Positions 4,472-7,427 of a stretch of 20,388 nucleotides of DNA are shown piece by piece. The position numbers and the translations under genes were made by a program. Origin of the DNA: a virus; the IMG/VR virus record IMGVR_UViG_3300035670_001470, positions 1 to 20,388 of that record; one strand, 5' to 3'. Position 1 is the first letter of the stretch; every line of letters begins with the position of its first letter. A model generated the notes under the pieces. The model had not been told where the DNA came from, ran no database searches, and saw nothing but the letters and a program-made list of their open reading frames with translations.

Positions 4472-4551
4472 GTAGCGATTGAGTGTTAGCACCGTCGTGT
4501 TTGTCTGCGTTAGCGCGGCAAGTATTTATCAACCCTTTATTTAGGAGAATC

Positions 4552-5734: not shown

Positions 5735-5771
5735 GCCCCGGAGATTGCAGGTTGCTCCGGGGTTCTCTTTT
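5735..5771 (+). terminator. Intrinsic terminator after the capsid gene
   Basis: CCCCGGAG (5736-5743) pairs perfectly with CTCCGGGG (5755-5762) around an 11-base loop and is followed by TTCTCTTTT (5763-5771). The same nine-base tail follows the terminator at 10354. It starts 20 bases after the capsid stop. Confidence 0.88.
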
Positions 5772-5780
5772 ATGTATACT
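5752..5780 (+). promoter_or_regulatory. Putative promoter for the structured RNA region
   Basis: TATACT (5775-5780) is a good -10 hexamer, 17 bases after TTGCTC (5752-5757), a weak -35 that lies in the terminator stem. Initiation would fall near 5786-5788, exactly where the first predicted RNA helix begins. Confidence 0.45.
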
Positions 5781-5786
5781 GTTGTT

Positions 5787-6118
5787 GTGCCGTACTGCTC
5801 CGAAAGTGCAACAAGTTCAATGGCCCAAGGTACGGTGGGGCAAGTGCTAGAGGCAGACCTCCGGACGGTGGTCGTGCTTCTAGGGCTAAGGGACTGATGA
5901 CAGAACGCTGAGAGATGCCTTCGTGTGAGGCTAGTCAACTGGAGGCGGCGAGTGCAACTCTCGACAGTCCACGGATACCTCAGAACCGTCCCTGTAATAC
6001 GAAAGTGTCGGTCAAACGGCTGGGGTTAGGTTTAGGGCTGTGCTACTTGACCATCGTGAATAAAGTAGCGAGAGGTGCACCGTATGGTGTTGCCAAAGTG
6101 CGATTCTTAGCAGCCCAC
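5787..6118 (+). ncRNA. Candidate structured non-coding RNA, no known family recognised
   Basis: No convincing coding sequence fills the gap 5716-6236, but helices are dense. Seen by hand: 5788-5795 with 5830-5837 (8 bp); a near-perfect hairpin 5847-5859 with 5870-5883 (13 bp, one bulged G); GGACTG 5891-5896 with CAGTCC 5965-5970, enclosing smaller stems (5898-5901/5934-5937, 5917-5920/5928-5931, 5949-5952/5960-5963); ACGG 5971-5974 with CCGT 5986-5989; a GAAA-tetraloop hairpin 5997-6008; GGTCAA 6010-6015 with TTGACC 6047-6052, continued by 6016-6020/6037-6041; and GCACC 6077-6081 with GGTGT 6086-6090. GTGGG 5835-5839 could close the whole with CCCAC 6114-6118 but competes with the first helix. 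I tested it by eye against tmRNA, RNase P, T-box, cobalamin and group I/II intron signatures and found no match. It could instead be a long leader of the sugar cassette. The 3' end is not defined by a terminator. Confidence 0.45.
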
Positions 6119-6121
6119 TTT

Positions 6122-6199
6122 CCGCGTGAACGCGCGAATAGGGGATGATTTGCCAAGGTTTCAGGGGAAGATTTGCCAAAAACCGCGCGAACACGCGAA
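6122..6199 (+). repeat. Two interleaved pairs of direct repeats upstream of the sugar cassette
   Basis: Unit A, CCGCGTGAACGCGCGAA (6122-6138), recurs as CCGCGCGAACACGCGAA (6183-6199) with 15 of 17 bases equal; each copy is itself a near-palindrome of CGCG halves. Unit B, GGGGATGATTTGCCAA (6141-6156), recurs as GGGGAAGATTTGCCAA (6164-6179) with 15 of 16 equal. The order is A-B-B-A, ending 25 bases before the TATAAT box, which is a plausible place for regulator sites. Confidence 0.7.
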
Positions 6200-6224
6200 A
6201 AAACACGATTTAAGCCAATAACGC

Positions 6225-6237
6225 TATAATGCTGTTA
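6225..6237 (+). promoter_or_regulatory. TATAAT box giving a probable leaderless mRNA
   Basis: A perfect TATAAT (6225-6230) lies six bases before the ATG at 6237, so transcription would begin at or next to the start codon. No Shine-Dalgarno sequence precedes this ATG. No good -35 is present at the usual distance. Leaderless mRNAs with this spacing are well known in Actinobacteria. Confidence 0.65.
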
Positions 6238-7427
6238 TGACTAAACCTGCAAAGTTAGACGCTGTAATCACACTGTATTCGAACACCCCGGGACAACCGA
6301 CTGGGTACGGGCAACAAGCGGAGTATTTGGTTGAACGCCTCAAACGAGACGGTGCACAAGTCGCAGCCATCTCTAACTATGGGCTTGAAGGCAACAACAG
6401 CACCATTAACACTAAGTATGGTCAGATTCCGCATTATGCTCGCGGTTTAGAAGCCTACTCAAATGATGTGCTACCGCTGCATCATAAACATTTTGCGGCC
6501 AAGTTCAAAGACAAAAAAGATTTACTGATTACCTTGTATGACACTTGGGTGTTGAACGCTAAACTGTTGAAAGACATTAACATCGCGTCTTGGGTCCCGT
6601 TAGACCATACAACCATGCCTCCAAAGGTTGAAGCGTGGCTGAAGCAATCTAATGTGACACCGATTGCGATGGCCCCGTTCGGTGTACGCCAGATGCAAGA
6701 CAAAGGCATCGATTGTTTTTATGTGCCTCACGGTATTGATACTAAAACCTATAAGCCAACTAAAACCATTGAGGGTCAAATCACTCGTGACTTTATGGGT
6801 GTCACAGATTCTCAGTTCGTTGTGGGCATTGTTGGGGCGAATAAAGCTAACGGGTCTATTCACCGTAAAGCGTATGCGGAGAACTTTTTAGCTTTCAGTA
6901 TCTTTTTGAAGAAGCACCCGGATGCTGTGCTGTATGTGCACACTAACCCGTTGTTTCCGGCTGGTGGGTTTAACCTGCTGGATTTGGCTCATTCGGTTGG
7001 GATTCCGCAAGCTAACCTGTTGTTTCCTAATCAGGTTGATTTACAGTATGGGTTTGCTCAGCGTGACCTTGCTGCTTTGTATTCAGCTATGGATGTGATG
7101 TTGGTCACTTCGTATGGTGAGGGTTTCGGTATTCCTACTGTTGAAGCTCAAGCCTGTGGTACTCGTGTGATTGGGTCGAATTGGGCAGCTACACAGGATT
7201 TGGTTGCTGAGGATGGTTGGTTGGTTGATGGGCAGCCGTTCTGGGATGAGGCTCAAAAGTCTTGGTTCCAGATTCCGTTGGTGCCTTCGATTGTTGAAGC
7301 TCTTGAGCAGGCTTATAACGCTCCGCGTGAACGCTCTAAAGTGTCTATGGAGTTCGCTAAACAGTTTGATGTTGAGACAGTTTGGGAACAGCATTGGTTA
7401 CCAACTTTGCAGAAGATTCTGGGATGA
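6237..7427 (+). CDS. Glycosyltransferase, GT4-like (GT-B fold)
   Basis: This is a 396-aa cytoplasmic protein without signal or membrane segment, of normal length for the family. The N-terminal acceptor domain opens with 'PGQPTGYGQQAEYLVERL' (residues 18-35), the Gly-rich loop typical of GT-B enzymes. 'FYVPHGID' (161-168) marks the domain hinge. The donor-sugar motif E-x7-E is present as 'EGFGIPTVEA' (Glu295 and Glu303). GT4 enzymes transfer a sugar from a nucleotide donor with retention of configuration. Donor and acceptor cannot be read from sequence. It overlaps the next transferase by four bases (ATGA) and heads a three-gene cassette placed between capsid and connector genes, which suggests modification of virion proteins; host-surface modification is the alternative. 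Its start has no ribosome site but a TATAAT box six bases upstream. Confidence 0.88.
   Translation: MTKPAKLDAVITLYSNTPGQPTGYGQQAEYLVERLKRDGAQVAAISNYGLEGNNSTINTKYGQIPHYARGLEAYSNDVLPLHHKHFAAKFKDKKDLLITLYDTWVLNAKLLKDINIASWVPLDHTTMPPKVEAWLKQSNVTPIAMAPFGVRQMQDKGIDCFYVPHGIDTKTYKPTKTIEGQITRDFMGVTDSQFVVGIVGANKANGSIHRKAYAENFLAFSIFLKKHPDAVLYVHTNPLFPAGGFNLLDLAHSVGIPQANLLFPNQVDLQYGFAQRDLAALYSAMDVMLVTSYGEGFGIPTVEAQACGTRVIGSNWAATQDLVAEDGWLVDGQPFWDEAQKSWFQIPLVPSIVEALEQAYNAPRERSKVSMEFAKQFDVETVWEQHWLPTLQKILG

Follow-up and report, generated by a model that had tools for sequence, protein, structure and literature searches.

Candidate non-decoding tRNA-like units and a conserved hairpin in a modular RNA between the capsid and glycosyltransferase genes of a virus

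In the window, as we call the whole stretch of 20,388 bases of viral DNA that was analyzed, the region 5787-6118 is flanked by the major capsid gene (phrog_10) and a glycosyltransferase gene (phrog_2170), and it appears to encode an RNA of 332 nt in which two tRNA-like units are arranged around a conserved hairpin, after a 5' domain. The order in the window is the 5' domain (5787-5883), tRNA-like unit 1 (5891-5972), the hairpin, named motif H (5973-6027), and tRNA-like unit 2, named module B (6035-6118). An earlier examination of the letters alone (hereafter, the sequence-only reading) had proposed one large structured RNA at this place; the structure was borne out, and the single unit gave way to a string of mobile modules, two of which are tRNA-like. 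The interpretation that we favor, with a confidence of about one half, is that the region is an autonomous, horizontally moving gene for a non-decoding tRNA-mimic RNA, which would be processed like a tRNA and would bind, or act as a decoy for, a tRNA-handling factor of the host, and that this gene came as a cassette into the gap between the capsid and glycosyltransferase genes.

The nearest capsid of an isolated phage is that of Pontimonas phage phiPsal1, with 58.5% identity to the capsid of the window. This closeness, together with the presence of a WhiB gene, suggests an actinobacterial host; the hosts are probably freshwater actinobacteria, and perhaps Microbacteriaceae. The comparison drew on 80 loci that encode a related capsid, including one (L001) that represents the window's own virus. 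Gap lengths were scored only in those capsid relatives whose flank was long enough, and in nearly all of these (70-odd with a readable flank) the distance from the capsid stop codon to the next long frame is approximately 40-110 nt; the corresponding gap in phiPsal1 is 69 nt. The same distance in the window is 524 nt, i.e., about 450 nt more than in the relatives. In many relatives without the insertion, a terminator is followed by a -10 box and by a glycosyltransferase gene that starts without a leader, and the window shows this same layout plus the approximately 450 nt and a second -10 box. The insertion is also present in a 12.9-kb contig (L001/L106) that is 99.9% identical to the window. 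An assembly chimera is unlikely, given about seven differences between the window and L001 in 10.3 kb, and it is also disfavored by the recurrence, in another sample (L152), of flanks of the type seen in L083, a different phage that carries the RNA.

The same slot is occupied in one relative (L010, 5164-5370) by a different structured insert of about 130 nt, with a -10 box and a terminator of its own, which ends with ..GAGCCAC ahead of that terminator. Small RNA genes seem to be accommodated by the capsid-glycosyltransferase slot. On the other side of the capsid gene, a candidate structured leader is found ahead of the capsid start of the window (4480-4530; GAGTGTTAGCACCG..TGCGTTAGCGC), and a conserved pre-capsid leader of five relatives (L006, L008, L031, L061 and L073; GTGAGTCAGCTCTGCCGT..GCGTCAGCGC) looks like a further structured element.

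As the sequence-only reading had pointed out, a terminator and a TATACT box are located directly upstream of the region. The Rho-independent terminator of the capsid gene (5736-5771, + strand), which is the left neighbor of the cassette and is found at the same place in the capsid relatives, is composed of an 8-bp stem (5736-5743/5755-5762), an 11-nt loop and a U-run. The predicted -10 box TATACT of the RNA gene (5775-5780, + strand) is placed 6 nt ahead of 5787, the first structured base. A TANNNT sequence 6-9 nt ahead of the first module can be observed in 12 loci, which represent about eight types; no -10 box at this distance was found in four loci with H (L142, L114, L135 and L095). Downstream, a trailer of 84 nt (6119-6202) travels with the RNA: it is 98% identical in L083, is also present in L152, and is found as a divergent copy in L123. 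The trailer contains two 16-bp direct repeats (GGGGAWGATTTGCCAA; 6141-6156 and 6164-6179) with a spacing of 23 bp, flanked by CGCGNGAACNCGCG elements, and both the repeats and these elements move with the RNA cassette (window, L083, L152 and L123). The repeats look like an operator. The right neighbor of the insertion is the glycosyltransferase -10 box TATAAT with its leaderless ATG (6225-6239, + strand), which in the relatives without the insertion directly follows the capsid terminator.

A separate observation concerns the loop of the capsid terminator (5745-5753 in the window), which is the reverse complement, over 7-11 nt, of the first glycosyltransferase codons (6244-6252). This complementarity is found in about 52 of the 78 loci compared (relatives L002-L080), and the loop and the codons covary (GCAGGTT/AACCTGC, CTAGGTT/AACCTAG, GTAGGTT/AACCTAC and others). 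The complementary segments could silence the glycosyltransferase start, by an antisense or read-through mechanism, or they could form a DNA operator. In the window, the insertion parts the terminator loop from its complementary codons.

In folding stability, the + strand of the region has z = -2.3, and 2 of 100 shuffled sequences fold as stably; the - strand has z = -0.14. Since the z-score is only modest, thermodynamics alone would not decide the reality of the RNA. The unconstrained minimum-energy fold (-125.6 kcal/mol) differs from the comparative fold (-115.6 kcal/mol). For the 3' half (H and B), we consider that the reality of the predicted RNA is settled by comparative evidence. The individual features listed in the sequence-only reading were all found in the sequence or its fold; among them, the 13-bp hairpin of the 5' domain (5847-5883) folds as claimed, with -21.6 kcal/mol. 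The rest of this domain (5787-5883, + strand) contains a possible pseudoknot, formed by the pairs CCGUAC 5790-5795/GUACGG 5830-5835 and GCCC 5823-5826/GGGC 5838-5841. The 5' domain is carried only by the window and L083, two near-identical sequences (98% identity), and its putative helices are those of the predicted fold. An open reading frame of 77 aa (5915-6148) was dismissed, as the supported constraint is at the RNA level; it is also disfavored by the insertions of 205 nt and 74 nt that relatives hold. No reading frame is needed to account for the region.

Covarying helices had been named by the sequence-only reading as the test of a structured RNA, and covariation was found in both H and B. 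Module B (6035-6118, + strand; covariance model R2) is a cloverleaf with covariation in all four arms, namely an acceptor-like stem, a D-like arm with the conserved loop UGACCAUCGUGAAUA, a middle arm, and a T-arm-like hairpin with the T-loop UGCGAUU. Its 3' end, ..CCAC, is at 6118, exactly the right end proposed earlier for the region. The middle arm has a loop of 4 nt (GUAU, GUAA, GUAG or GGAU) in nearly all copies, and because this loop stands at the place of the anticodon loop, B cannot decode. Unprompted, RNAalifold produced the four-helix cloverleaf from six B sequences, with nine doubly changed pairs. Over 18 named pairs of these six sequences, 99.1% of the cells pair, and the covariation score is 0.519 compared with 0.242 for the shuffles, none of 500 reaching the observed value; the six sequences represent two main lineages, and the independent events are fewer than the counts. 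A later scan with part of the acceptor stem and the T-loop fixed yielded eight more phages, and a last one with the D-like loop yielded a ninth. In an alignment of 14 sequences, 17 of 22 pairs show double-sided changes, spread over all four arms; this alignment was fitted to R2 and leans towards the acceptor, D-like and middle arms of the model, the T-stem pairs being outside R2. In the second group of B sequences, part of the acceptor had been set by the scan, and there the evidence from the D-like, middle and T arms is less biased. The most divergent copy (L167) has most of its stems changed, and the copy of the window has an A-A mismatch in the T stem. Neither a kept G3:U70 pair nor another known identity element was found in the B acceptor. 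One strong copy of B is present in each of the 14 records that carry it, and two of these (L175 and L177) have an additional, weaker R2 match that resembles unit 1. We propose B as an RNA family supported by covariation and absent from Rfam.

The helix 5891-5896/5965-5970, previously described as the closing helix of a domain, indeed forms six Watson-Crick pairs, and it is the acceptor-like stem of unit 1 (5891-5972, + strand), which was recognized by its match to the R2 model of module B. Unit 1 also has a T-arm-like hairpin (5949-5963) with the loop UGCAACU, and it ends, like B, with ..CCAC. A search of 519 kb of collected sequence with R2 gave 5891-5972 as the sole match besides the B copies, at full length and with E = 1; in 541 nt, the corresponding value is E = 0.0011. 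It seems unlikely that a chance match would fall within this RNA and be in register at both ends. Units related to unit 1 in L083, L149, L165, L175 and L177 show compensatory changes in the acceptor and T stems, and a pattern scan with the T arm of unit 1 alone found nothing beyond the known loci. As the model matches are weaker, unit 1 appears less well supported than H and B.

Motif H (5973-6027, + strand; covariance model R1, E 7e-17 in the window) is composed of a 7-bp outer stem, an AA bulge, a CNGU/ACNG helix, an internal loop and a variable tip; the tip in the window is the GAAA hairpin (5997-6008) already noticed from the sequence. Copies were gathered by exact scans and then with R1, and H was found in more than 25 contigs, with about 17 sequence types. 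The internal loop CCCUGUA/(C,A)G(A,G)UCAA is nearly invariant, in part because the search pattern demanded it; the pattern put no constraint on the outer stem or on the pair of columns 15-48, and both covary. Among 13 distinct aligned sequences, 98.6% of the structure cells pair and five pairs are doubly changed. The covariation score is 0.306; none of 500 shuffles (mean 0.139) reached this value, and the slid controls went no higher than 0.096. H is present as a single copy in all 15 records that hold it, which are up to 95 kb long. It lies within a few bases 3' of the end of a tRNA or tRNA-like unit in the window, L083, L092, L174, L101 (tRNA-Gln) and L102/L108 (tRNA-Arg). It is followed by a U-run in L092, L098, L123 and L174, and by none in the window, L083 and L102. 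Since H is also found without a tRNA-like unit (L098, L123 and L155, each with H alone and a -10 box), it may have a role of its own. Candidate bacterial copies (Pseudomonas and Limnobacter; 15-21 bits) are without the outer stem and were taken as chance matches. Like B, H is put forward as a family supported by covariation that Rfam does not contain.

The comparison of loci, most of them from fragmentary records, points to modules that move separately. L083, found by using a read-through translation of the region as a search probe, is a phage with a capsid 55% identical to that of the window, and its RNA is placed before the capsid gene. The promoter and the 5' 214 nt are 98% identical to those of the window, the identity beginning in the alignment within the 3' arm of the capsid terminator; about 205 extra nt follow, then a 3' part with 87% identity, 73 extra nt, and the trailer. 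In L152, which comes from another sample, most of the RNA is deleted and the promoter, a short hairpin and B are kept. The L092/L147 group has B followed by H, the reverse of the order in the window, and the smallest forms consist of H alone, with about 60 nt, or of B and H, with about 150 nt. The modules, to judge from these sequences, are mobile alone, together, swapped or enlarged, and the predicted RNA is not monolithic; the same comparisons indicate horizontal transfer of the RNA cassette between phages.

In some relatives, the modules are close to tRNA and tmRNA genes. A phage tmRNA is located upstream of B, on the same strand, in five contigs, at 50-140 nt in L165, L168 and L179, and at about 460 nt in L175 and L177; a tRNA-Leu is near B in L165 and L167. 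The tmRNA (..CATCTCCAC), the tRNA-Leu (..GGTCAC) and the tRNA-like units have a common 3' end ..CAC, which is consistent with CCA completion by a host enzyme. The tags of the tmRNAs in this group of five contigs are ANTSAYALAA and AESRSAFALAA, and further conserved hairpins (e.g., GTAGACAAAGGAGCGTAAAGCGGTCTAC) follow these tmRNAs, before or after B depending on the phage. Two phage tRNAs (L170 14466-14543, - strand; L172 4404-4475, + strand) have a T-loop UGCRAYY, with G replacing the near-universal U55; this T-loop is of the same kind as in the tRNA-like units.

The sequence-only reading recognized no known family in the region, and our searches agree: Rfam gave no match at the gathering score and, at E <= 10, one chance snoRNA only. 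ARAGORN predicted no tRNA or tmRNA in the window, the tRNA model RF00005 had no match at E <= 10 in the window and none for the L149 array, the tmRNA model RF00023 had no match in the window record, and the GOLLD and ROOL models of Rfam had no match. Introns, RNase P, 6S, tmRNA and HEARO were ruled out by the lack of an Rfam match. A hammerhead core (CUGAUGA at 5894) was ruled out by eye, as L083 has AUUGAUGA and no other part of the core is present. By blastn, the window region, B and H had no match among 50,697 isolated phage records, and B had none among plasmids; a literature text search with conserved strings of the RNA returned unrelated titles only. A search of 13 records, the majority of which are fragments, gave no gene of the Ro60 type (TROVE, PF05731).

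According to the interpretation that we favor, the RNA would be transcribed from the predicted promoter of the cassette, its units would fold as tRNA elbows, and host tRNA enzymes would trim them (RNase P, 3' trimming and CCA addition). The trimmed units would then bind or decoy a host factor, which may belong to a tRNA-cutting defence or be a translation or processing factor. Without a usable anticodon arm, the units cannot decode, and an RNA that is tRNA-shaped and non-decoding most plausibly occupies something that recognizes the tRNA elbow or acceptor. Moreover, because the promoter is kept while the place and neighbors change, and because the copy number is low, the RNA behaves more like one that acts in trans than like a leader. 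A more far-reaching proposal, which we make only tentatively, is that of a new RNA class of non-decoding tRNA mimics with exchangeable modules, mostly present as a single strong copy in a genome, which would intercept translation factors or the defences of the host that target tRNA, H being a separate, widely shared element whose near-invariant loop binds one target.

Several alternatives were weighed against the tRNA-mimic interpretation. The position of the RNA, directly before the glycosyltransferase gene in the window and directly before the capsid gene in most phages of its group, would suit a leader or an intergenic regulator that acts in cis on the adjacent structural or glycosyltransferase gene (an attenuator, riboswitch or processing site), and H with a U-run could act as a regulated terminator. 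The neighbors, however, vary by phage (capsid, glycosyltransferase, exonuclease and tRNAs), the glycosyltransferase gene downstream is provided with a -10 box and a leaderless start of its own, and the tmRNA-bearing arrays are located elsewhere in the genome, so that a role in cis appears rather unlikely. We also find it unlikely, and to a similar degree, that the units are the remnant of a phage tRNA/tmRNA array that lost decoding and persists by drift: their tRNA-like form, their presence in tRNA/tmRNA arrays of relatives, the mismatch in the T stem of the window copy of B and the loss of most of the RNA in L152 would fit such decay, but compensatory changes in every B arm and in H, the conserved loops, the recurrent predicted promoters and a 5' domain that is still 98% conserved after its transfer speak against it.

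A structural RNA, self-assembling or contained in the particle like the GOLLD/ROOL cages or the phi29 pRNA, with the T-loops and conserved hairpin loops as contacts, would by its position be expressed with the head genes; several conserved loops could make tertiary contacts, and the setting is that of GOLLD and ROOL (PMC12286853). The minimal forms are nevertheless small, and no GOLLD or ROOL Rfam match was obtained, which leaves this explanation doubtful. Chance foldability of a GC-rich gap without a functional RNA would agree with the modest single-sequence z-score, but the covariation of H and B is far above the shuffled and slid controls, and the same modules are found in unrelated contexts; this explanation is very improbable for the region, and for 5973-6118 specifically we consider it refuted by the sequence comparisons.

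With B and H, two covariation-supported families are added that are absent from Rfam and from the isolated phage records searched, and their covariance models can be used to find copies elsewhere. Phage tmRNA/tRNA arrays are now linked to candidate non-decoding tRNA mimics and, if the decoy idea is true, the handling of host tRNA biology by phages would extend beyond the supply of decoding tRNAs.

By the tests run, the RNA is outside GOLLD, ROOL, tmRNA, tRNA and YrlA, and it shares features with each of several known systems. The likeness to tRNA consists of the acceptor-like stem, T-arm, T-loop U54..A58 and compensated stems of B and unit 1; the ..CAC ends of the units and the tmRNA adjoining B in five contigs extend it to tmRNA, and the tRNA-Gln (L101) and tRNA-Arg (L102) adjoining H extend it to the setting. 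Unlike tRNA, B has no anticodon arm with a 7-nt loop, and its D-like arm is longer and has its own conserved loop; unlike tmRNA, the RNA of the window has neither a tag reading frame nor a model match. The tRNA cluster of phage T4 holds stable non-tRNA RNAs of unknown role, which resemble the present RNA in their place in a phage tRNA cluster, the comparison being by description. GOLLD and ROOL, modular structured phage RNAs of unknown role found near tRNA islands (PMC12286853), had been named as analogues in the sequence-only reading; the analogy stands for the setting near tRNA islands and for the modular parts, but not for the family, as the RNA of the window is much shorter, contains tRNA-like cloverleaves and has no sequence or model match to them. 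Like YrlA, it is a non-coding, non-decoding RNA that mimics tRNA (PMC7790460), whereas YrlA has one such domain and a Ro-binding stem instead of two units and motif H, and there is no Rfam match. The tRNA-like domain of a Y RNA has been suggested to inhibit an anticodon nuclease competitively (PMC7790460), and phage tRNAs have been proposed to counter host defences that cut tRNA (PMC10264068).
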